From the IMG/VR virus record IMGVR_UViG_3300031772_000066, positions 1-44,145 of that record: 44,145 bases of DNA; one strand, written 5' to 3'. A program made the translations under genes and the position numbers. The stretch is from a virus. Under the pieces are notes generated by a model. That model saw only the letters and a list, made by a program, of their open reading frames with translations. It was not told where the DNA came from and did not search any database. Shown here in pieces: positions 6,817-43,071 of the stretch. Numbering within the stretch: position 1 is the stretch's first letter; every line of letters starts with the position of its first letter.

Positions 6817-7803
6817 ATGGCAATTGAACTTACGGAACAGCTAAACACAATGTACACGACTACCTGGTATCTTAGACGGAAGGAAGTGGTGGACCAGATT
6901 TTTAACGCCACGCCGTTTTGGTATTTGATGTCTAAGAAAGGGAAGAGGTCAACCCAATCAGGTGGGCGTTCGATAGAGATACCTTTGCAATATGCGAAAA
7001 ATGAAACTGTCACATTCATAGGTCGTGGCGGTACCGTAGCACTATCAGCAACTGACCCTCTAACTGTGGTTCATTGGAAGTGGAAGTATCTGACTGGTCA
7101 CATAATCAGGTATTTTGCGGATTTCCAGATGAACAGGGGACAGGCGCAGTTGATGAATAAGGTGAATGCGGATATTGATAACTTACAGAGTAGTTTGATT
7201 GATAAGTTGGAGACATCCTTATTTACGGCAGCTGGTGCAGGCACAGATATAGATGGGTTAGCGAACATCATCTCTATCACACCTACAACTGAGGCGGGTG
7301 GAGCGACAGGTGACCTCTCTCGGGTGACTTATCCGTGGTGGAGGAACAACTATAAGTCGATGAGTGGGGAGGCAGCATCAATTTATCTTCGTAAGAGGAT
7401 GAATACGATGTTTAATGATTGTGGACAACAAGGGGAGGGTGTGAGTAGGTTCCCTGATATTGTGGTGACTGCACAGAATGTGTATGAGATGTATGAGTCA
7501 GAAGCCTTAGAGATATCAAGGATTATGATTGCGGATAGGAAGATGGCAGATTTAGGTTTCGGTGATTTAGCTTTCAAAGGAAGACCGTTAACTTGGTCAC
7601 CATCCTGCCCATCGGGATATATGTACTTCCTGAACACATCTGTACTTGAGTGGGTGGCTGACCCAATAGAGAACTTCACACTTGGGGAGTGGTTACCGAT
7701 AGTAAATCAGCCACGTGATGTAGTGGCTCATACTATGACGGTTGGGAACTTTATAGCTTCTAACTTGAAGAGGTTAGGGGTTATTATTGCAATAGCCGAA
7801 TAA
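6817..7803 (+). CDS. Major capsid protein, HK97-fold type (328 aa)
   Basis: Position after the scaffold, length, and an N-terminal arm leading to a 'NATPFWYLMSKKGKR' segment and a beta strand with GGRSIEIPLQYAKNETV agree with HK97-fold coat proteins of podoviruses. A conserved-type C-terminal end ('VGNFIASNLKRLGVI') is also seen. It forms the icosahedral shell around the portal. AAGGAG lies 8 nt before the ATG. A run of three RNA hairpins follows the gene, which may stabilise its transcript. Confidence 0.85.
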   Translation: MAIELTEQLNTMYTTTWYLRRKEVVDQIFNATPFWYLMSKKGKRSTQSGGRSIEIPLQYAKNETVTFIGRGGTVALSATDPLTVVHWKWKYLTGHIIRYFADFQMNRGQAQLMNKVNADIDNLQSSLIDKLETSLFTAAGAGTDIDGLANIISITPTTEAGGATGDLSRVTYPWWRNNYKSMSGEAASIYLRKRMNTMFNDCGQQGEGVSRFPDIVVTAQNVYEMYESEALEISRIMIADRKMADLGFGDLAFKGRPLTWSPSCPSGYMYFLNTSVLEWVADPIENFTLGEWLPIVNQPRDVVAHTMTVGNFIASNLKRLGVIIAIAE

Positions 7804-24557: not shown

Positions 24558-27500
24558 ATGCCTAGACTAATATTAGATGAACTACAGAAAACAGGACCAA
24601 CATTAGTGTTAGATGAACCATCTTCAACTTTAGTAGAGGAGACAGGTCCTCATCTAGTTTTAGATGATACGGTAGAAAAAGATGAGCAATTCTCTAAAAT
24701 GTCTCCTCTCAACAAAACGTTAGATATCATTGGTCGACCAGGTTACGCCTTCCGTTCTCTCATCTCCCAAATACAAGATGAGACTAAACAATCTATAGAC
24801 AAGATAGATGAGAAGTATGGAATTGGAGTTGAAGGCGCCATCATCACTCCTGAGACTCAACGAAAGATGGAGAAAGAAAAGAAGATGGCAATACTATCAA
24901 CAAAGCCACAGGTAATGGAGAGGTTGAATGCGGTGTGGAGAGGACTAAGTGGGAAAGAACGTCTCACAGGTAATCAATTGTGGGAGAAGGTTGGAGTGAA
25001 GGGTGTCCCTCTATTAGGGTTTGCAACAGATGTAGCTACCGACCCTCTTATGTATGGAGGGTATAGTGCTATTACGAAGGGGGTAGGAAAGATTGCAGGA
25101 AAAGTAGGTGAGACATCTATGAAGGTTCCTGCCATCAAAACATTAGCTACAACAGTGAGTGAGTCAGCTAAACCTTGGATGGAGTTGATATCTACTAAAT
25201 CCCCCATCCCCGCTATGAACGATATGATAGATAAGTGGTTGTCAGAACGACAGTTCCTGAAAGGGAGGGAGATACAATACGCAGCACAAACTCGACTAGC
25301 AGTTAAATCAATAGCTAGAAAAATGGGGGTGACTCCTAAAGAGATAGGACAACGAACAGCAAATATAATAGAGTTACGCTATCATCCAGAGGAGTTAGCG
25401 AAAGTAGTCCCTAACATCCTTCCTGAAGAGAGAGCACTGGCTAATACACTCCAAAGTCATTGGACTAGTCAGATTGTGGATGAGATGAAACGTGGAGTTC
25501 CTATCTCTCCTCTCTCCAGTGTGAGAGATACTAAAGTGGCTAAGTTGCGAAAGAATCTAGAAGTGATACGAACTGGGTATGGGACGGAGTTGGCTAGGAC
25601 AAGAGCACAGTTAGTGAAAGAATTAGATGTGTATGGTGACCAGAAGTTGGGAGAGGTCACAAATAAGTTGATTGGAGCTAAAGAGAAGATAGAAGATGCA
25701 GCTTATCGTTCCCATCTTGACAATGTAAAGAGGTTGAATACGCAGATAGATTCTATTGATGGACAGATGCGGACGTTGGAAGAGTTAAGGTTGAAGGTAG
25801 CGAAGGGTGGTGGACGTGCTCTATCAGTAGAAGCAGATATACAGAAAACGCAAGGTCTGTTGGATAGAATGAAGTTGAGTGAAGAGGGTGGGTATGCTGT
25901 GGAGCCTAAATTTACTGGTAGTAAAGTTGCGATAGGTGAGGGGAAAGTAGAGATGATAAATGTTTCCGACACTCCTTCCCGTGCAAGAGTAGTGGGTATA
26001 AGTAAGGAAAAATGGGATATTATGGCTACTGATATTAAAACTAATGGCGTTAAGGTTCCCATTATTATAGATAAAGAAAGTGGAATGGTTTTAGATGGAC
26101 ACACAAGATTAACAATAGCGGAAGATTTAGGAATAAAGAAAGTTCCAGTTGTCTATGTAGACAAGTCAAATATGGATAAAACAGACATTACAGCCTTAAA
26201 TAAACAACTTACAGAACAATACAACCCCAAACTCTCCCAACCCACAGGTGTAGTAGTAGAAAAAGGCATTAGACCTCCCAACAAATCCGTCCAAGGTCTC
26301 CTCAATCGAAAGCGTCTTCTCGAACAGAATCTCTCCGACCTCCAATCACAATCGACCAAACCTCTCATCGAAATAGACAAACAACTGAGTAAACTCGAGA
26401 ATCAGTTCTGGTACTTGCATAGTGAGATGGCTGACCGTCTCCAAGACATTCCCGAACTAGCTAAAGGCAGTCTCTACATTAAACAGATTGATGACATTTC
26501 CAAACTCCTCTCAGCCGATATAGAGGTCAACTTAGGAGGGAGGGGAGTGTCGTTAGCTAAACAGATTATGGCTGCGGAAGAGAAGGTAGGTAAACTTCCA
26601 CACACCCCTATTGGTATACCAACAGGAGAGTCGCGTAAACTACTGAAACAGTTGACAATAGAGAGGGCGAAGAGAGAGTTTGGATACTTCCCTCGAATTA
26701 CGACTGATGATGCAAAGAAGATACTATTAAGTATGAGAATTGGACGCACTAAATTATGGACTCCCCAGATGATGAACGCGTTGAAGAGGAGGACAGAAGA
26801 CTTCACATTAGATGAGTTTAATTCGTTTGTGAATGGGTTTGGACTGAAATCTTTAGAAGGGAAGACGCTTGAACAATTCTTCCTCACCGACCCTTCCTAC
26901 ATCTCTGCAGTGAGAGGAACAAGAGGAGCGAAAGCAATCACCTCTGCCGAATTCTTGAGGGAGACAGGAGAGAAGTTCGGTCTCCCCATCGCTGATGCCC
27001 CCTCCACCTACATCCAACTCCCAGAGAATGTTATCAAACTCAACCCCTCTCTTAAGGGACTGGTGTTCCCTAATGAGGTGGCGGCAGAGATAGGGAGAGC
27101 TAGTGAATACTACATGAACCCAAGTTATCGACCTGAGGTATGGGATAGTTTTGTGAAACACTTTGACCAAGTACAGAACGTATGGAAGAGATGGCAATTA
27201 GCTGTGTTTCCTAAATATCATCTCCGAAATATGGTGGGGAATATGTGGAACAACTTCTTAGCTGACGTCTCCGTCGAATACTACCCTAAAGCAAGTGCTC
27301 TTCAAGCTTATCGCAAGTATGGTAACATCCCCTATTATGGAGACCTTGCACGAAAAGGGTTGAGGACGTTGGGGATATCGATAGAGGATGCAAACAAACT
27401 GATACTCGATGCTGAACGCCTAGGAGTCCTCGAACATGGATGGTATGCAAGCGACATCGACTTATCGATACGTCAAGCGATGGGAGGGAAGGGGGGGATT

Positions 27501-28385
27501 AGTGGAAGAGGAATGTTAGTGGGACGTACTATTGAGAATAATGCAAGGTTAGCACATTTTATGGATAGAGTAGTAGGGAGAGGGAAGTCGGTGGAAGAGG
27601 CAGCTCTCTCCGTGAAAAAGTATCTATTCGACTATGGTGACCTCACTCATTTTGAGAGGACAGTTATGAAACGACTCATGCCTTTCTATACTTGGACTAG
27701 AAAAAACATTCCCCTCCAGTTAGAGTCCCTGTTGAAGACTCCTGAGAAGTTTGCACCTCTCGCCATCCCCATCCGTAACCGAGAACCTATCGACCTACTT
27801 AGACTTAAATATACTAACAACAACCTCTACCAACGTCTCCCTCTCGAACTACAACGAACCATAGACACCGTCACCTACATCCCTCTCGAGGGGATATTAC
27901 CAGCAGCTGATTTAGCAAAGATAGCACGACCTCAAGACATCCTCTTTGATTTACTCTCCCCCTTCGTGAAGGAACCAGCACAACAAGCTTTCAATAAAGA
28001 CATCTACTTCGACCAACCTATTCAACGATATAAGGGAGAGAACGCTCCCTTCCTTGGTGCCGACATCCCTGTCCGCATCCGTCACCTCCTCACCACCGTC
28101 TCTCCAGGTGCACGTATCACAAGAGAATTGGATGGATTGGTGACGAAGAAGAAAAACAAACTACCATTAACACCAGCGGAATGGGCATTTGCATCTACCC
28201 TCTCTACTGTATATAAAAGTGATTTAAAAGATTTACGAAGACGTGCATTGACTAAGACGATGGGGGATATAAAAGAGTTGACGATGGGAGCAGCGAATGC
28301 GAAGAGGAATGGGAGAGAAGAGGAATTCAAGTCTATTAAAAACACATTAGACAATGTCGTGAAGGACATGAAAGGAATACGATGA
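24558..28385 (+). CDS. Giant ejection/polyvalent protein with ParB-like domain (1275 aa)
   Basis: The N-terminus has three short repeats of the type L-[IV]-L-D-[ED] (residues about 4-8, 16-20, 30-34). A large helical region with several coiled coils follows. Residues about 455-540 carry a ParB-N-like domain: RARVVGISKEKW...VPIIIDKESGMVLDGHTRLTIAEDLG...VPVVYVD. The C-terminal third (PKYHLRNMVGNMWNN and FYTWTRKNIPLQLE) looks like an ejection-protein channel region. Length exceeds T7 gp16-type proteins slightly. It likely enters the host with the DNA. The ParB part has base use unlike its flanks, suggesting insertion. Confidence 0.75.
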   Translation: MPRLILDELQKTGPTLVLDEPSSTLVEETGPHLVLDDTVEKDEQFSKMSPLNKTLDIIGRPGYAFRSLISQIQDETKQSIDKIDEKYGIGVEGAIITPETQRKMEKEKKMAILSTKPQVMERLNAVWRGLSGKERLTGNQLWEKVGVKGVPLLGFATDVATDPLMYGGYSAITKGVGKIAGKVGETSMKVPAIKTLATTVSESAKPWMELISTKSPIPAMNDMIDKWLSERQFLKGREIQYAAQTRLAVKSIARKMGVTPKEIGQRTANIIELRYHPEELAKVVPNILPEERALANTLQSHWTSQIVDEMKRGVPISPLSSVRDTKVAKLRKNLEVIRTGYGTELARTRAQLVKELDVYGDQKLGEVTNKLIGAKEKIEDAAYRSHLDNVKRLNTQIDSIDGQMRTLEELRLKVAKGGGRALSVEADIQKTQGLLDRMKLSEEGGYAVEPKFTGSKVAIGEGKVEMINVSDTPSRARVVGISKEKWDIMATDIKTNGVKVPIIIDKESGMVLDGHTRLTIAEDLGIKKVPVVYVDKSNMDKTDITALNKQLTEQYNPKLSQPTGVVVEKGIRPPNKSVQGLLNRKRLLEQNLSDLQSQSTKPLIEIDKQLSKLENQFWYLHSEMADRLQDIPELAKGSLYIKQIDDISKLLSADIEVNLGGRGVSLAKQIMAAEEKVGKLPHTPIGIPTGESRKLLKQLTIERAKREFGYFPRITTDDAKKILLSMRIGRTKLWTPQMMNALKRRTEDFTLDEFNSFVNGFGLKSLEGKTLEQFFLTDPSYISAVRGTRGAKAITSAEFLRETGEKFGLPIADAPSTYIQLPENVIKLNPSLKGLVFPNEVAAEIGRASEYYMNPSYRPEVWDSFVKHFDQVQNVWKRWQLAVFPKYHLRNMVGNMWNNFLADVSVEYYPKASALQAYRKYGNIPYYGDLARKGLRTLGISIEDANKLILDAERLGVLEHGWYASDIDLSIRQAMGGKGGISGRGMLVGRTIENNARLAHFMDRVVGRGKSVEEAALSVKKYLFDYGDLTHFERTVMKRLMPFYTWTRKNIPLQLESLLKTPEKFAPLAIPIRNREPIDLLRLKYTNNNLYQRLPLELQRTIDTVTYIPLEGILPAADLAKIARPQDILFDLLSPFVKEPAQQAFNKDIYFDQPIQRYKGENAPFLGADIPVRIRHLLTTVSPGARITRELDGLVTKKKNKLPLTPAEWAFASTLSTVYKSDLKDLRRRALTKTMGDIKELTMGAANAKRNGREEEFKSIKNTLDNVVKDMKGIR

Positions 28386-29482
28386 CACTATTATTCATAT
28401 CAAGAATAGGGGATAGTTTAGGACTAGCTATGCGATGCCTCAGTGAAGGATACTCCATTCTCTTCTACACCGAAGACGAGTCCGCATCCTTCCTAGGAAA
28501 TGGAATAGTGGAGAAGGTAGCATTCTCTAAACATCTCCTAAACCAGAGAGAGGAATGTGTCGCATCTAATATCCATCAACTCTTAACCGAAACCAAACCA
28601 GACCTAGTGGTGGTGGATGGGGAGGGGATGGGGAAAGTAGCGGATTACATTAAAGAACAAGGGGTAAGTGTGTTTGGTAGTTCCCACTGGACCGACTCTC
28701 TCTGCAGTAACGAAAGTTATGCGAGAGAGGTGATGAAGAGGGTAGGGATAGAGAGGTGGAAAGGGGAAGAGGGAGTTAAACTGGAATGTGGAGTGTGGTG
28801 GAATGGACTCTCTTCCATCTCCTCATTCGTGGTATGGAATGAAGACCGCTTCATGACTTCCTCTCTCGGCCCCCTTATTGACTCTGCCAGCAACATCATC
28901 TCTTGTCCTCACTTACATACAGAGTTGGTGGAGAATGGGGTGGGGAAGATGGAGAGATTGTTGAAGAAATCTAAATTCCGAGGTATCCTTTCTCTATCAT
29001 CTATAGTAACGAAAAGTAAATTGTATGCTATCTCCTTCACAACCTCCACCCTCTACCTCTCCTCTCTTCTCGAATTATATAAAGGTTCAGTTGTCGAACT
29101 ACTATTAGCTGTATCAAATGCAAGAAAAAGTGATGGCGAATTCACCACGGACTATGCCCTCTCTCTCCTCCTCTCTGTCCCCCCCTTCCCATCTCCTTCC
29201 AATGGATGTGTAAAGACATTAGTGAAGGGAGTTAGTCCGTCCAACCTCCGTCACCTCTATATGATGGATATGCAGAAAAATGGAGATGTATATGAAAGTG
29301 GAGGTAGGGATGGGAAGTTGATGTTCGTAAGTGCTAGAGGGAGAGATGTGGGGGAAGCAAAGAAACGAGTGATGAAGACCATCTCCAATCTAGACATTGA
29401 CAATGTCCAGTATAGAGTCGACCCCACCACTCGTATCTCTATCGAAGAGAAGAAGTTATTGGAGTGGGGTTATTTAATTTGA
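28382..29482 (+). CDS. PurD-like ATP-grasp protein (366 aa)
   Basis: The N-terminal 120 residues resemble phosphoribosylamine-glycine ligase: a Rossmann-type start, KPDLVVVDGEG, then VFGSSHWTDSLCSNESYAREVMKRVGI, which parallels the PurD 'VFGPS...A-L-E-x-S-K-x-F-A-K' segment. The rest looks like a degenerate ATP-grasp fold with a LGPLID turn. Several catalytic positions cannot be confirmed by eye. Overlap with the ejection gene (ATGA) puts it in the late operon, not with replication. A role in purine supply is possible, but so is a peptide- or base-modifying ligase. Confidence 0.65.
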   Translation: MTLLFISRIGDSLGLAMRCLSEGYSILFYTEDESASFLGNGIVEKVAFSKHLLNQREECVASNIHQLLTETKPDLVVVDGEGMGKVADYIKEQGVSVFGSSHWTDSLCSNESYAREVMKRVGIERWKGEEGVKLECGVWWNGLSSISSFVVWNEDRFMTSSLGPLIDSASNIISCPHLHTELVENGVGKMERLLKKSKFRGILSLSSIVTKSKLYAISFTTSTLYLSSLLELYKGSVVELLLAVSNARKSDGEFTTDYALSLLLSVPPFPSPSNGCVKTLVKGVSPSNLRHLYMMDMQKNGDVYESGGRDGKLMFVSARGRDVGEAKKRVMKTISNLDIDNVQYRVDPTTRISIEEKKLLEWGYLI

Positions 29483-29989: not shown

Positions 29990-31180
29990 TCACTGTCCTC
30001 CTTTCATCTTATACCACCTCTTCCCCTCTTTCACATACTGCACCACCCTATCTCCCGCCACCAAATCCATCAACACTTCTTCCAACATCTTACTGTTCAA
30101 ACAGTAACTAAGTTGGCGAGAGAGTGAGACAAAATCAATCTCCTCCTTCCTACATATCGTCCTATACACCTTCTCCATATTCTCCCCTACATCCGTCATC
30201 TGTATTAGGCGGAGTGTGTCTGGTAAGTATTGCTCATTCTTATTCAACGCCCTCAGTGCCATCTTCAACTCAATCTCATCCACCACTAAACTATTCGATT
30301 TAGATACCGACAGACTTATTGCCACCTTCAACAATGTGTCGTGTTTGCGTCCAAAGTATCCATCGAGAGATGCGTATGGTGTCGTCTCAGGTTTGAACAC
30401 TGTCGTATACCACCCTTCATACCACTCCTTCGCCTTATCCGTTAACTTAAACTGTCCTCCCAACTTAGATATAACCTTCAAATCATGTATTAACTTCCCT
30501 TTCAACACCACCATCTCTGGAGTCAGTTCAGGAAATGCAATAAGTTTCTCAGGTTTATCTTGATACACGAAAATAATACGACTCGTAAATCCTCCACCAA
30601 CGGCGTGAGGAGGCATACTATCCTTCAACCATTGTGGTGTCGTGCCCGCAATCATATTACAATACACACAATTCATCACCTCTTTCCCCCTCATCATTGT
30701 ATGATACTCGAAATGCTTCGGACAATCATACCACTTCGTCAACAGTTGCATGAGGTCCATATTTTTCGCTTGCCCTCCCAAAAACACTCCCAACTCATCA
30801 CACACAATGACTCCACCTGATACTCCCTTCGTCTTATATCCATCAACGAATAGTGAAATGATAGCTTCTGGTGTCACCTTCTGACTAACTATCACCACAT
30901 CCTCTCCCATCGTCTCTCTAAAGACTTCATACCCAATCCCAATCGCTGTCGTCTTCCTCACCCTCGCACTCGCCCCTATCAACACTACATACAAATTAGG
31001 ATATAATGTATAATATCCTCTATGTATCCAACACTTCCTCTCTAGCGCACTCGCAATCACCGACGTTCCTACCCAAAAGTGGAACAGACTAGGGGACTCT
31101 GTCTCTTGAGTGTAATCAGCGTATGCTGTCAACCAATCATCTAAGAGACGTTTACCATTCTTCCCGTTCCCATTAGCCAT
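29990..31180 (-). CDS. DUF3987-type ATPase, replicative helicase candidate (396 aa)
   Basis: A P-loop variant GASARVRKTT (residues 69-78) and a Walker B GGVIVCDELG (122-131) match the DUF3987/YfjI-like family, whose members replace DnaB-type helicases or primase-helicases in many phages. The N-terminus begins with the family-type FxFWVGTSVIASAL segment. A C-terminal helical region follows. AGGAG lies 7 nt before the ATG. It is in the same operon as the polymerase, consistent with replication. No primase motifs were seen. Confidence 0.8.
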   Translation of the reverse strand: MANGNGKNGKRLLDDWLTAYADYTQETESPSLFHFWVGTSVIASALERKCWIHRGYYTLYPNLYVVLIGASARVRKTTAIGIGYEVFRETMGEDVVIVSQKVTPEAIISLFVDGYKTKGVSGGVIVCDELGVFLGGQAKNMDLMQLLTKWYDCPKHFEYHTMMRGKEVMNCVYCNMIAGTTPQWLKDSMPPHAVGGGFTSRIIFVYQDKPEKLIAFPELTPEMVVLKGKLIHDLKVISKLGGQFKLTDKAKEWYEGWYTTVFKPETTPYASLDGYFGRKHDTLLKVAISLSVSKSNSLVVDEIELKMALRALNKNEQYLPDTLRLIQMTDVGENMEKVYRTICRKEEIDFVSLSRQLSYCLNSKMLEEVLMDLVAGDRVVQYVKEGKRWYKMKGGQ

Positions 31181-31189
31181 AGATGTCTC

Positions 31190-31438
31190 CTATTTCTTTT
31201 TTAATAGTGTAGATAAAGGAGTTGACTGCCAAATACTACTTATTATTTTTCTTTGATGCCGTCTAAAACTTCGTGTGTATACACTACTTATATATTTCAA
31301 TGAATTCCAGCACTTAAACGCTCCACACTTAACACATTGCCAATACTTTATTTCTCTATTCCCTCCATACCACTTCCAAGATGGACGACCTACATGTGTA
31401 TGTTTCCAACGCATTGTTTTTCTTAAGTGTGCTTTCAT
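31190..31438 (-). CDS. Small basic protein with one Cys pair (82 aa)
   Basis: The ATG overlaps the polymerase stop (ATGA). HTHVGRPSWKWYGGNREIKYWQCVKCGAF (about residues 13-41, given here as a description) resembles small phage zinc-binding proteins with His and CxxC ligands. The C-terminal half is basic. It links polymerase and helicase genes, so a replication accessory role is plausible. Confidence 0.6.
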   Translation of the reverse strand: MKAHLRKTMRWKHTHVGRPSWKWYGGNREIKYWQCVKCGAFKCWNSLKYISSVYTRSFRRHQRKIISSIWQSTPLSTLLKKK

Positions 31439-33810
31439 TTAATCTTCTCCATCTCATCCCAATTCTTCCCTACTTTAATATCTATTGGCATAGTCAGTGT
31501 CTTCCCATTTATATAGATAGGGATGTTGAATACTTCTCTAATAATTAGAATAGTTTGGTCTATACTAGTAATGTCATTACCACACTGTACAACGAATGCA
31601 TCGTGTATCTGCAACATAGGTTCAGGCTTTGCAAATGTTGTGTACTTCCCAGAGTTTGTTAGACTATCCAATCTAATCAATGCTAAGTTTAGGACATCAG
31701 CAACAGTCGACTGTGGAACGAATGCATACGCCTTCCTAAAGAGTTGGTCCCCCCAAAGTCCAAAGAATGTCCTCTTCCTCCCCATAGGAGTAGTCATTGT
31801 TCTACTCTTTCCCAGACGAGATTGGATAGAGAGATGCCACGCCTTTATCCGCGGAAACATATCGAAGTACCTATCTCTAATGGCTCCTGCTGTCTTTCTA
31901 TCTATCTGCGCTCTCCTTGCAAATGTCCACTCTCCTTCTCCATAGTTAAACGCATGAACATGCTTCTTCGCAAACAATCTCCTCGGATTAGGGACATTCT
32001 CATAAGCAGAACCACTCGGCATAAACGATGTTGGTAATGAGTCCGCCGTTAATTGATGTATATCTCCCCCCTTCTCGAATATCTCTATCATCCTCTCTTC
32101 TTCTGATAGATATGCAACCACTCTCGCCTCCGCCTGTGATAAGTCAGCTTCAATAAAAACCTTCCCCTCATCCGCTACAAACATTCTTCTACACACTCCT
32201 GGCGGTATATTCTGAAGATTAGTTCCACTTCTGAAAACAGATTGTCTACTAGACAGTCTACCTGTCTCAGTCCCTCCAATCACATACGAACATCTCATCC
32301 TTCCATCATCCCCTCCCGCATCGTTTAGATACGTTCCTATCAACTTCCTATTCTGTCTAATCCCAAGGATGAGGTCGAATATAGGAGAATTAAACTTATT
32401 CGCCAAATTCTCAAGTGCTTCCTCATTTGTAGTTAACTGCGTCGTCCCTTTCTTATATTGTGGAGGTAGATTAAGCTCAACATACAGTAAATCCTTCAAC
32501 TGTTTCGGACTCATCACGTTAACTATCCTCCCTACCGCTCCTGACAACTTCTCTTCCAACTCTACCGTCTCTTTCTCATACATCTCCATCGCCGACATTC
32601 GAACAGATTGGTCGATAAGGACTCCCCTCATCTGCATCTCTAGTAATATTGGAATGAGTGGATGCACTAACTTATAATAAAAGCCGAAGACTCCAAACTC
32701 CTTCATCTCCTTCTCTATCACATCTGCACACTCATACGTCACACAGGCGTCCATACAGTTATATCTCCAGAAGATTTCATCCGTCCCACTCTTTCCCCAA
32801 TGTTTATAATACGGCTGTCTAGTATATATCGAACAGAGTAGACCTAATGACTTCCCCCCTCCAATGGAGTGCTTCCTCTTCCCTCCCGGACTTTCCTCCT
32901 CACTCGCTGCCATCTCTGGATACACAGTATGATGTCCACACATCGTGTCGAATACTAATCCCTTCACATGCGTGTGATATGGATTGATGAGCATCATAAT
33001 AATGTCGAATTGCGCATTTTGTGCAATCTTCCCTATCTCCTCATCTTCCATAATCTCTTTCACTTGCTTCCATATCTCTATCTCCTCCTCTAGTCTCCAA
33101 TACGGTGCGCCACTCGAATTCGTGAAAGGAATAGATAGTGCATGCCAAGGGTCTGGTGCAAGTGCTATTACAGTTATATGTCCATCCTCATCCGTCTCCA
33201 CATCGAAGCTTATCTTCTTCACCTTCTTTAGTCTACTCAACTCATACATCAATGTCTCGTATAGAGGACGAAGAATAAACTCCCTATTCCTCAATGAATA
33301 TTCAGGTGACTTACTCTCCTCCCTAATCCTCTTAAAATCAAACATCACTAGCGGTATATTATTCCAACTTCTGAGTAAGGCTGCTGGATGAATGGTAGGA
33401 ATAATCTTACACCCTATCTCCTTATTGAATAAGATGGACCCTCTCCAGTTCGTAATCCCTCTCTCTCCAGTCAACGCCCTCAGTGCCTCATTCCCTAACG
33501 CTACTACCACATTAGGATTACATCTCCTAATATCCTCCTTTAAATACTCTATCCCATCAACCAACTCTTGTTTAGGTATATGTTTCTGTCTATCCACATA
33601 AAAATGAGAGAAATCATTATTAGGCGGTCTCACCCTCATCACATTCCCTACTCTACACTCTCCCCTCACCAATCCAGCTTCCATAAGAAGTCGATTGAGG
33701 AGACGTCCCGCTCCCCCACAAAACGGCTTCCCCTCCATCTCCTCCGTCGAACCTGGCGCCTCCCCGCATATATATATCTTCGCGTTCTTAGGTCCATCAA
33801 ATTCTACCAC
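31435..33810 (-). CDS. Uracil-DNA glycosylase / 3'-5' exonuclease / family A DNA polymerase fusion (791 aa)
   Basis: Residues 1-190 are a UDG-superfamily domain: CGEAPGSTEEMEGKPF at 15-30 and IHPAALLR at 140-147. The iron-sulfur Cys set of family 4 enzymes is not complete. Exonuclease motifs follow: FDVETD 202-207, QNAQFD 264-269, YNCMD 350-354. Polymerase signatures are TGRLSS...NLQNIP (516-536), motif A EADLSQAEAR (554-563) and motif C QIHDAF (734-739). In motif B (RxxxKxxxHxxxYG, 611-624) His619 stands where E. coli has Phe762. It replicates phage DNA and may check or use uracil. It is first of the terminal replication genes. Confidence 0.9.
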   Translation of the reverse strand: MVEFDGPKNAKIYICGEAPGSTEEMEGKPFCGGAGRLLNRLLMEAGLVRGECRVGNVMRVRPPNNDFSHFYVDRQKHIPKQELVDGIEYLKEDIRRCNPNVVVALGNEALRALTGERGITNWRGSILFNKEIGCKIIPTIHPAALLRSWNNIPLVMFDFKRIREESKSPEYSLRNREFILRPLYETLMYELSRLKKVKKISFDVETDEDGHITVIALAPDPWHALSIPFTNSSGAPYWRLEEEIEIWKQVKEIMEDEEIGKIAQNAQFDIIMMLINPYHTHVKGLVFDTMCGHHTVYPEMAASEEESPGGKRKHSIGGGKSLGLLCSIYTRQPYYKHWGKSGTDEIFWRYNCMDACVTYECADVIEKEMKEFGVFGFYYKLVHPLIPILLEMQMRGVLIDQSVRMSAMEMYEKETVELEEKLSGAVGRIVNVMSPKQLKDLLYVELNLPPQYKKGTTQLTTNEEALENLANKFNSPIFDLILGIRQNRKLIGTYLNDAGGDDGRMRCSYVIGGTETGRLSSRQSVFRSGTNLQNIPPGVCRRMFVADEGKVFIEADLSQAEARVVAYLSEEERMIEIFEKGGDIHQLTADSLPTSFMPSGSAYENVPNPRRLFAKKHVHAFNYGEGEWTFARRAQIDRKTAGAIRDRYFDMFPRIKAWHLSIQSRLGKSRTMTTPMGRKRTFFGLWGDQLFRKAYAFVPQSTVADVLNLALIRLDSLTNSGKYTTFAKPEPMLQIHDAFVVQCGNDITSIDQTILIIREVFNIPIYINGKTLTMPIDIKVGKNWDEMEKIK

Positions 33811-34098: not shown

Positions 34099-34248
34099 CT
34101 ATCCTTTCAACCACATCACATTCCAGTTAATTAACGCAGATAACAAATAGAAGTAACCCTTTGCTGGCTCCTTATATATAAATGATACAAGGCTAGCTCC
34201 AACAAACACTCCCACCACCATCCATTGAAAGATGTATTTACACCACAT
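34099..34248 (-). CDS. Small membrane protein (49 aa)
   Basis: This frame starts 11 nt before the methyltransferase stop, with GAGG-type sequence upstream. It has two hydrophobic stretches (about residues 9-24 and 32-41) and a C-terminal MWLKG. The segment would otherwise be a 145-nt gap in a tightly packed operon. Likely a small phage membrane peptide; function unknown. Confidence 0.6.
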   Translation of the reverse strand: MWCKYIFQWMVVGVFVGASLVSFIYKEPAKGYFYLLSALINWNVMWLKG

Positions 34249-35518
34249 CCTCTACCACCTCTTCCTCCCCTTTCTTCAACGCTTCCAACCTCAACACCCC
34301 TTGATTGCAGTATTCCTTATCTATATCACAACTCCACCCATTCCTTTTCATCTCCAATGCGCTAATCAAAGTTGAGAACGACCCTCCATACGGGTCTATC
34401 ACCAACTCTCCCGCTTGACTACTCTGCTCTATCATCTTCCTTATCATCATCCTTGGCTTCTCAGTAGGATGCACCTTCCTTTGAGGAGCCACTCTCGGCT
34501 CCAACCACACATTTGATTGACCCAACTTATTTAATGGACGTCTCCCTTTCATACAGAAGAAGAATGCCTCATAATTCGACGCATATGCATATTCACTTCC
34601 TCCCGCTCCTCCTCCCCCACTCTTATGCCAGATACAAGGAACAGGATTAACATTAAATCCCGTATCCCTCAACATCTTCAACAAATACTCATAATGTTGA
34701 ATACCAAACCAAATATACATGTGACGGTCATCCTTCAACACTCTATAACACTCTCTCACAACAATAGATATATTATTCATCACCCTCTCTACCTCATCAT
34801 CTTGTTGATACACCTTCCCCGCCCACGCATCAATAGATTTAAAGTCTTTATCCAAATTGATTGCATACTGAGGGTCAGTAAACACAAGGTCAACACTGTT
34901 CGACTTCAACTTCCTCATCTCCACCTCATTATTCCCACACACTATACACTTCGTATCTATCTCTATCTTCACCCTCTCCGCTAACTCATCCGTATACAAC
35001 CTCTCCTTCATCTTCTGAAATCTCTTCCATGCTGCATCCTTACTTGCCTCTCGTCCAATATCTGGAAACTCTTCTATCGCTCTCGCAAGTCGCAAATCAC
35101 GGCTAACAGTACCAATAGAATCACCAACACTATCAGCTGTGTCTCGTATCGACCACCCCCCACCATGTCCTTTAATTGCACTTCCATACAACTCCCTCTT
35201 TATCTTGTCTATCTCATTCTTCGCTTTAACTTCTTCTTGCCACGTAAAATCCTTCCTCTTTAAATTCTCCTCTATCTCAATCTCCCTCTTCTCAAGTTCC
35301 GTCATCTCCTTCAACTGCTTCACCTCAATCTCCGTAATCCCCAGAAGTCGATGCGCTTTTAACCTCCTCTCCCCCGCAATCAAATTCAACTCATTATCCA
35401 CCACAATTGGATGGAGTAATCCATACCTCTGAATTGAGACAGCCAACTCCTCTATCTCTCCATAATCATCCCTAAACCTCTCCGCTGCTATCTTCACCTG
35501 GTCTACTCTAACTCTCAT
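34238..35518 (-). CDS. ParB-domain DNA methyltransferase (426 aa)
   Basis: Residues about 5-90 are a ParB-N/sulfiredoxin-like domain with the ligand loop NLIAGERRLKAHRLLG. A helical, HTH-like linker (SIRDTADSVGDSIGTVSRDLRLA, about 123-145) follows. The methyltransferase has TDPQY at 214-218 (catalytic motif IV) before the AdoMet motif IDPYGGSFS at 374-382, the beta-class order of adenine-N6/cytosine-N4 enzymes. It may protect DNA from restriction, mark packaging or replication, or bind specific sites. ATG 35518 has AAGGAGAG upstream and overlaps the previous stop; ATG 35557 lies inside that gene. Confidence 0.88.
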   Translation of the reverse strand: MRVRVDQVKIAAERFRDDYGEIEELAVSIQRYGLLHPIVVDNELNLIAGERRLKAHRLLGITEIEVKQLKEMTELEKREIEIEENLKRKDFTWQEEVKAKNEIDKIKRELYGSAIKGHGGGWSIRDTADSVGDSIGTVSRDLRLARAIEEFPDIGREASKDAAWKRFQKMKERLYTDELAERVKIEIDTKCIVCGNNEVEMRKLKSNSVDLVFTDPQYAINLDKDFKSIDAWAGKVYQQDDEVERVMNNISIVVRECYRVLKDDRHMYIWFGIQHYEYLLKMLRDTGFNVNPVPCIWHKSGGGGAGGSEYAYASNYEAFFFCMKGRRPLNKLGQSNVWLEPRVAPQRKVHPTEKPRMMIRKMIEQSSQAGELVIDPYGGSFSTLISALEMKRNGWSCDIDKEYCNQGVLRLEALKKGEEEVVEDVV

Positions 35519-35883
35519 ATCTCTCCTTGTTTTAACATAAAGTTGATTGCGTTGCATTCTTCTCCAGATAGTTGGATAGAAGAAAACTCTTCTATCTCAA
35601 ACTGTTTTATATCTACTTCCACTTCCGTCTCCAAAAATGCCTCAAACTCCTTTTCAAACACCTCCGCATTTTCTGGCGTCACCGTCCACGTCTTCTTCTT
35701 CTCATCCTCTTTTCCAAACTTCTTCACCAACTCTACTCTACTCTTATTTATATCTCTCAACTCCCTCTCCACCCTATCCACATCTCTCCCCACCCAATAC
35801 GCTAATTTGATAGGTAAATCTTTACTCGCCACCTTCATTATCGCTTTTTGACTATCCCACAACTTTCTCAGTTTAACTTTCAT
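35515..35883 (-). CDS. Coiled-coil protein of unknown function (122 aa)
   Basis: TAGGAG precedes the ATG. An N-terminal KVKLRKLWDSQKAIMKVASKDLPIKLAYWVG segment (described here, residues about 2-33) and a charged helical middle part match small phage proteins of unknown role that lie beside replication genes. Its stop overlaps the methyltransferase ATG. A tRNA-like structure lies just upstream. Confidence 0.75.
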   Translation of the reverse strand: MKVKLRKLWDSQKAIMKVASKDLPIKLAYWVGRDVDRVERELRDINKSRVELVKKFGKEDEKKKTWTVTPENAEVFEKEFEAFLETEVEVDIKQFEIEEFSSIQLSGEECNAINFMLKQGEI

Positions 35884-36477: not shown

Positions 36478-36705
36478 CTATTCGTTACTTTCTTTGCCTG
36501 TCCCACCTCCTCTCTCCCTTTGTATATGTTCTTTAATCTCCTCTTGTATCGGCTTCCCACAAAAACCACAAAACTTTCCTATAATACTCACTTCATTCTC
36601 ACAATGTGGACACATCAACATACCATTTATACTCTTCTTCCCACATCTCCAACAGAACTTCTCACCACATAATACCGAACATTCTGGACAGTAGTTATTT
36701 AACAT
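36478..36705 (-). CDS. Double zinc-ribbon protein (75 aa)
   Basis: Four Cys pairs (CPEC, CWRC, CPHC, CGFC) form two consecutive zinc ribbons, followed by a charged helix. This resembles small zinc-ribbon proteins seen across bacteria. It overlaps the homing endonuclease end by 11 nt. Ribosome site is weak (GGAAAAG). Function unknown. Confidence 0.7.
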   Translation of the reverse strand: MLNNYCPECSVLCGEKFCWRCGKKSINGMLMCPHCENEVSIIGKFCGFCGKPIQEEIKEHIQRERGGGTGKESNE

Positions 36706-37156
36706 CTTTTCCAGTTACCACCTTTCCTTTAGTATTTAAACTTCTTATCTTGTTAGCAATTGTTCTACTTAAGTCACCAATTGGTTGGTTCTTCCCTTCT
36801 AACTCTCTTTGTTTAATATATTCTAACATCCAATATGCTTGTTCTTGTTTGCCTACTAAATACTTTTGTATCATTCTTAAATAAATTTCTATCTCGAAAT
36901 AGTTAGTTATCCTAACTTGATATGCATCTTTGTGGTTAGACGCAATATCTCTTTTTAGTATTTGAATAGCAGGTTGGATATTCATCTCTTTCATTAAATC
37001 CATTGTATGATAAGCAATTTTAGTGTCTGTAGAACTAACACATACATTCACACTATATCCTATTTTTTCTCTATCATATTTATGAACTTCACAAAGAGTA
37101 ATAGTTCCCTCTCCATCAATAATTCCTGCTAACCAACCTAAATCAGATTCTGTCAT
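36695..37156 (-). CDS. LAGLIDADG homing endonuclease (153 aa)
   Basis: The single motif LAGIIDGEG at residues 9-17 is the family signature, with Asp14 and Glu16 at catalytic positions. One motif in 153 aa suggests a homodimer. It overlaps the Sak4-like stop by ATGA. Its codons are more AT-rich than its neighbours, and the adjacent 3' part of the ATPase gene shares that bias. It is a free-standing mobile gene, not in an intron or intein as far as can be seen. Confidence 0.85.
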   Translation of the reverse strand: MTESDLGWLAGIIDGEGTITLCEVHKYDREKIGYSVNVCVSSTDTKIAYHTMDLMKEMNIQPAIQILKRDIASNHKDAYQVRITNYFEIEIYLRMIQKYLVGKQEQAYWMLEYIKQRELEGKNQPIGDLSRTIANKIRSLNTKGKVVTGKDVK

Positions 37157-42701: not shown

Positions 42702-42966
42702 CACACACCTCCTTATCATACACTATCACTCTTCCATCATCTACCAATTTCTGTAGTGTAGCTTGTATATCCCCTTCATAATGTTCCATATATGGTTGAT
42801 TTCCAAATCCTAGCACCACTTCTACCTTGCACTTACCACACTTCCAGAGGTCAGCTTCCCACAATTTATATATCTCTGTATTCTGATGCATCATCTCCAC
42901 CACAACCACCCCATTCTTTTCACACTCTAGTTCTTGTTCACATTTGACGCATACTGATTTAGGCAT
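42685..42966 (-). CDS. Zinc-ribbon phage protein (93 aa)
   Basis: AAGGAG precedes the ATG. CVKC at residues 6-9 and CGKC at about 43-46 form the ribbon, with the context LWEADLWKCGKCKVEVVLGFG, a pattern common in small early phage proteins. Function unknown. Confidence 0.72.
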   Translation of the reverse strand: MPKSVCVKCEQELECEKNGVVVVEMMHQNTEIYKLWEADLWKCGKCKVEVVLGFGNQPYMEHYEGDIQATLQKLVDDGRVIVYDKEVCGADNI

Positions 42967-42969
42967 CTT

Positions 42970-43071
42970 CTACTCTCCTTCCACTTTGCACTTCTTACTA
43001 AACATACATTTACCACACTTCCTTGTGTCTGGCTTCACACACATCCTCACCCATCCCCAATCATCTCGCAT
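42970..43071 (-). CDS. Cys-rich miniprotein (33 aa)
   Basis: The chain MRDDWGWVRMCVKPDTRKCGKC... has four Cys (11, 19, 22, 28) that could hold zinc. It overlaps the preceding gene and fills an otherwise empty 94-nt space. No good ribosome site is present, so translation would depend on coupling. Confidence 0.45.
   Translation of the reverse strand: MRDDWGWVRMCVKPDTRKCGKCMFSKKCKVEGE

Follow-up and report, generated by a model that had tools for sequence, protein, structure and literature searches.

Residue 762 of family A DNA polymerases (E. coli numbering) is a marker that ties the biochemistry and lifestyle of viral polymerases to metagenomic sequence, and its accepted alphabet is Phe, Tyr, and Leu. 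In the stretch of viral DNA analyzed here (44,145 nucleotides, referred to below as the window), one open reading frame was originally predicted to join a uracil glycosylase (UDG) domain, an exonuclease, and a polymerase with His at this position and HDA in motif C. What kind of polymerase does this gene encode, and do the histidine, motif C, and the glycosylase share an explanation such as uracil avoidance or modified bases?

The window encodes a family A polymerase with His762

The fusion gene (31435..33810, minus strand, as are all of its features below) begins with GTG and remains open through to its stop codon, encoding 791 aa. As predicted, three domains lie on one chain: a UDG domain at residues 6 to 151 (33358..33795; PF03167, E = 2.8e-25), a 3'-5' exonuclease domain at residues 191 to 369 (32704..33240; DNA_pol_A_exo1, E = 3.8e-7), and a family A polymerase domain at residues 409 to 786 (31453..32586; DNA_pol_A, E = 4.3e-60). 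Motif A reads DLSQAEAR (32122..32145), with D556 equivalent to D705 and E561 to the steric gate E710. In motif B (O-helix; 31939..31980), R611, K615, H619, Y623, and G624 aligned without gaps to E. coli R754, K758, F762, Y766, and G767, both by HMMER against Klenow and in a multiple alignment with E. coli PolA. The predicted His, H619 (codon 31954..31956), thus stands opposite F762. In the same Klenow and PolA alignments, motif C (H736-D737-A738; 31597..31605) stands opposite H881-D882-E883, bearing out the HDA reading, and the equivalent of N845 is A696 (31723..31725). Residues K758, Y766, R668, D705, Q849, H881, and D882 (E. coli numbering) are retained in the polymerase domain, as are exonuclease acids D203, E205, D269, and D354.

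The AlphaFold2 model of the protein (pLDDT 93.6, pTM 0.92) adopts the Klenow fold, with H619 inside an O-helix spanning residues 609 to 622; the top Foldseek match was 8oo6_A, a closed DNA complex (TMt 0.81). Motifs A, B, and C with D705/D882, K758, and R668, together with this fold, identify a family A DNA polymerase, and H619 places it outside the Phe762, Tyr762, and Leu762 viral PolA classes. Alignment with phage PolA sets, proposed as a check on the original prediction, placed no residue other than His at 762 in the window. Across 67 to 70 relatives, H619 was among 21 invariant columns at a mean column identity of ~30%, which is far beyond chance. A misaligned or chance His was ruled out, given the gap-free alignment and the invariance in ~70 relatives.

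Motif C proved less distinctive than had been claimed. Among 95 Phe762 sequences, HDA occurred in 56 and HDS in 34, compared to HDE in only 3. Because HDA and HDS are common to the His762 and Phe762 groups, motif C is no special feature of either. Loss of catalysis as the meaning of HDA was also ruled out: HDS or HDA is the majority form in the sampled phage PolA, and phiVC8 DpoZ, a studied active enzyme, carries Ser at that motif C position (PMC8599892).

His762 marks a single clade of phage polymerases

At least 557 relatives were found in IMG/VR by profile scan; 80 of them were retained, and the sample was widened with phage isolates, a scan for Phe762 UDG-PolA fusions, and other phage polymerases. 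Of the 191 sampled polymerase domains, 90 had His, 95 Phe, 3 Tyr, and 3 Leu at residue 762; because the sample was seeded with UDG-PolA sequences, these tallies do not measure how common His762 is across viral PolA as a whole. A UDG accompanied 86 of the 90 His762 and 83 of the 95 Phe762 polymerases among the same 191 domains. Three of the four His762 sequences in which no UDG was detected are fragments or split genes, and the fourth, from Aeromonas phage P5 (L270), truly lacks the domain, as does its His762 relative L275. Given that UDG fusions occur with Phe762 and His762 occurs without a UDG, the two traits are separable, and neither should explain the other.

Trees were built with the 762 column omitted. 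FastTree placed 78 His, one Leu, and one Phe sequence in one group, and IQ-TREE (60 rows) recovered the His762 clade with strong support (UFBoot 100, SH-aLRT 99). The parsimonious reading of these trees would be one gain of His762 and two losses, in L043 (Leu) and L082 (Phe). Named phage genomes with His762 include Microcystis phage Mel-JY34 and Caulobacter phage Kuura.

The polymerase gene takes other forms in several sampled records. In Caulobacter phage Kuura (L011, 5965-9369) and in L276 (2807-6716), a UDG-exonuclease protein and a His762 polymerase protein are encoded separately, with two small ORFs between the halves in Kuura. The polymerase frame is broken just before motif A in L005/L006 (~7640-7800, with a ~110-nt insertion), near motif A in L003 (near 7600), and between exonuclease and polymerase in L013 (2983-3130); these breaks could be intron remnants, intein scars, split genes, or sequencing errors. 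Two Phe762 UDG-PolA sequences (L244 and L258) carry an intein-like in-frame insert of ~200 residues (CIAEGQRV...VHNC) in the O-helix, between motif B positions 762 and Y766. Archaeal virus vir526 (L014) and L262 have an extra motif B residue between K758 and Y766 (KIFFFGGISYG and KGAVFGGIMYG, respectively), leaving their 762 equivalent ambiguous.

The fused UDG is a diverged family 4 relative without Fe-S cysteines

By sequence, the solved structures closest to the window UDG are those of Thermotoga and Thermus family 4 enzymes. Its TIGR00758 score (100.3 bits; E = 9.7e-29) fell below the cutoff of 125.3, and we therefore file it as a diverged family 4 relative rather than a full member. The family 4 catalytic motifs GExPG..E (GEAPGSTEE, residues 16 to 24; 33739..33765), Asn, and HPxxxxR (HPAALLR, H141 to R147; 33370..33390) are present, predicting a glycosylase. 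A check for loss of catalytic residues, which would have undermined the original prediction, found E17, E23, N56, and H141 in place. None of the 4Fe-4S cysteines was present at the four Thermus UDG positions. Across the clade, the Fe-S Cys84/Cys100 pair was absent in 74/74 His762 fused UDGs but present in 61/65 Phe762 fused UDGs.

A loop inserted after RPPNN (approximately residues 66 to 80; 33571..33615) is not seen in Fe-S family 4 UDGs. It recurs in the His762 clade and in standalone UDGs (L101-L123), mostly from Azospirillum genomes, which also lack the Fe-S cysteines, have the same insertion site, and group with the His762-clade UDGs in UDG trees. These relatives differ in being free-standing bacterial proteins, with a loop of 36 to 37 residues compared to 11 to 33 in the clade between the same markers; they may form a family 4 branch, free of Fe-S, that has yet to be described. 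The window loop lies at about the position of the UdgX loop, whose KRRIH sequence carries the crosslinking His. A UdgX-like crosslinking domain was ruled out, however, since a KRRIH-type His is not conserved and the TIGR03914 score was 76 bits against a cutoff of 190. An N-terminal UDG-like match was also seen in PDB 9qhs_A (1142 aa).

The split between Fe-S and non-Fe-S UDG types, together with the tree, suggests that UDGs were fused to polymerases twice independently. Nevertheless, a single clade of fused UDGs was not rejected (p-AU 0.213).

Uracil excision and DNA holding as proposed roles for the UDG domain

The UDG domain would sample DNA at the polymerase and excise, or stall at, uracil; it would also help hold the DNA. 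Uracil surveillance by the window polymerase is a plausible reading, in keeping with part of the original prediction. We see a nearly even chance that the domain is a catalytically active, replication-coupled glycosylase, clearing uracil from template or nascent DNA and substituting for a missing dUTPase. Catalytic E, N, and H were all retained in 62/74 fused His762 UDGs, which argues for catalysis, and these positions were intact in 22 of 22 standalone Azospirillum UDGs that share the loop. Furthermore, a dUTPase was found in only 1/53 clade records (L084 record, G042; 42803-43069). However, 12/74 fused copies lack one or more of the E, N, and H residues while retaining the domain. The losses require 8 changes on the tree, and one of the affected proteins, L021, is 52% identical to the window protein over the best segment. 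Excision at the fork would also leave an abasic site that may block replication or break the strand, and the domain has no family 4 Fe-S cluster.

Retention of the UDG after catalytic-residue loss in several members argues for an additional DNA-holding role, and it is quite possible that the UDG works chiefly as a DNA clamp or a processivity factor, a role suggested for SPO1-type polymerases and established for vaccinia D4. Consistent with a clamp, the loop insertion is lysine-rich in many members, and in Kuura and L276 the UDG remains joined to the exonuclease, with the polymerase in an ORF of its own; a processivity proposal has been published for SPO1 and Shbh1 (PMC5135824). On the other hand, most members conserve catalytic residues that a pure clamp would not need, and Aeromonas phage P5 and L275 manage without a UDG. 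The UDG is likely a uracil-sensing or DNA-gripping appendage on a replicative polymerase with a retuned nucleotide pocket.

Pocket residues and a DUF3987 gene travel with His762

The histidine does not change alone. N845 is replaced by Ala in 81/90 His762 polymerases, including the window, whereas Asn is kept in 93/95 Phe762 polymerases. Similarly, E710 is replaced by Asp in 38/90 His762 sequences but is Glu in 95/95 Phe762 sequences; the window has Glu (E561). The aromatic ring of F762, or of T7 Y526, packs against the sugar moiety of the incoming nucleotide (PMC13228545). By analogy, the H619 imidazole would replace the Phe or Tyr ring against the incoming dNTP sugar, and the nucleotide pocket would be remodeled jointly with residues 845 and 710.

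A gene for a DUF3987 P-loop protein ("DNA primase" phrog_14296; 29990..31180, minus strand) lies beside the polymerase gene, both in the window and in the annotated records examined. This gene was present in 37/38 His762 clade records compared to 0/36 Phe762 UDG-PolA records. It also occurs in the records of L270 and L275, which lack a UDG, of L276, in which the UDG is split off, and of archaeal virus vir526. The remodeled pocket would suit a fast replicative enzyme working with this ATPase. No tyrosine integrase was found in the 38 clade records, consistent with virulent phages.

Other genes near the polymerase were also observed. Upstream in the window, a ParB-N domain is fused to an N6/N4 DNA methyltransferase (34238-35557, minus strand), and a methylase or ParB-like gene lies near the polymerase in L009, L010, L012, and L013 as well. 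A 1275-aa protein (24558-28385, plus strand) oddly combines a ParB-like stretch (residues ~479-554) with a tail-fiber match (residues ~1009-1066). A 366-aa protein (28382-29482, plus strand) gave only a subthreshold match, to a phosphoribosylglycinamide synthetase C domain. A LAGLIDADG-type homing endonuclease ORF (36695-37156, minus strand) adjoins the gene for a Sak4-like annealing protein.

Could the His762 polymerases stand beside the Phe, Tyr, and Leu types of phage PolA as a fourth functional class, with their own sugar and nucleotide selectivity, a DUF3987-driven replisome, and a new Fe-S-free, looped UDG type? We advance this combined claim only tentatively and think it rather less than likely. 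If true, candidate properties would include Tyr-like ddNTP acceptance, looser ribonucleotide discrimination where Asp replaces Glu710, and pH-tuned catalysis. It is unlikely that His762 is instead a neutral leftover of a single ancestral fixation, with no functional consequence. A single origin does mean that the tallies are not independent observations, but His762 has stayed invariant at ~30% mean identity, has reverted only twice (to Leu and to Phe), and is coupled to changes at 845 and 710.

No genes for modified bases were found in the clade records

The suggestion that the fusion reflects modified bases was not upheld. No thymidylate-synthase-fold (TS-fold) gene was found in 53 His762 clade records, some of which are fragments, so that absence is not absolute; likewise, ThyX and adenylosuccinate synthetase (PurZ family) were each absent from 38 clade records, some fragmentary. 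In favor of a modified-base reading, TS-fold genes occur in 4/4 isolates and 12/31 contigs of Phe762 UDG-PolA phages, and SPO1-type phage DNA contains hydroxymethyluracil. The contrast in TS-fold genes between the Phe762 and His762 groups is clear despite the fragmentary records. It is very improbable that His762 and the UDG are adaptations to a noncanonical genome (uracil, hydroxymethyluracil, or 2-aminoadenine DNA), since these genes were not found in the clade records and the DpoZ models scored far below cutoff for the window polymerase. Identity as DpoZ, the 2-aminoadenine polymerase, was ruled out (NF038380/NF038381, 93 bits against a cutoff of 500; no purZ in the genome), as was base replacement or hypermodification, for which no supporting genes were present.

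Relation to known polymerases and glycosylases

The clade carries a fixed set of features: His762, Ala845 (sometimes with Asp710), a looped UDG lacking Fe-S, and a neighboring DUF3987 ATPase. We conclude that the window protein is probably the replicative, proofreading family A polymerase of a ~44-kb tailed phage, in a clade founded by a change from Phe762 to His; we infer the replicative use from gene neighbors. His762 is apparently an unreported, clade-defining variant; neither the fusion nor HDA is out of the ordinary. The 762 literature searched names only Phe, Tyr, and Leu (PMC6302109, PMC9069017, PMC13228545, PMC5928236, PMC12656738), and our search found no polymerase paper on "His762," although subscription papers were beyond its scope and priority is unproven. 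The finding adds a fourth 762 residue, fixed in a clade whose diversity matches that of the Phe762 fusions and which falls outside the published classes. At least one survey filter would exclude it, as the survey in PMC9069017 discarded sequences with any residue but F, L, or Y at 762. These polymerases offer natural enzymes for probing the effect of the O-helix residue on speed, fidelity, and nucleotide choice, and their UDGs, as predicted from their motifs, represent a second way of tethering a glycosylase to a polymerase, one free of Fe-S.

Fusion of a UDG to PolA is itself already known, having been described for SPO1 and Shbh1 (PMC5135824) and for PaBG (PMC7412058). These SPO1-type fusions (SPO1, Shbh1, and PaBG gp205) have the same UDG-exonuclease-polymerase order in one chain as the window protein, and motif C likewise reads HDA or HDS in the sampled Phe762 fusions, SPO1-like ones included. 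In other respects the two groups part. The sampled Phe762 fusions (SPO1-like SBSphiC and LysYB1, PMBT14, and others) have Phe762, Asn845, and mostly four Fe-S cysteines, with no loop insertion, no DUF3987 partner, and often a TS-fold gene, unlike the His762 clade. The window system lacks the SPO1-type combination of Phe762, an Fe-S UDG, and a TS-fold neighbor. Compared to family 4 UDGs (Thermus TTUDGA, PDB 1ui0; TM0511), the window UDG is alike in its GEAPG..E motif, Asn, HPAxLLR, and domain length but differs in having lost all Fe-S cysteine positions, in the loop after RPPxN, and in its fusion to a polymerase. Finally, in the Phe762, Tyr762, and Leu762 viral PolA classes (PMC6302109, PMC9069017), residue 762 also marks the clade and tracks replication neighbors; His is missing from their residue types.
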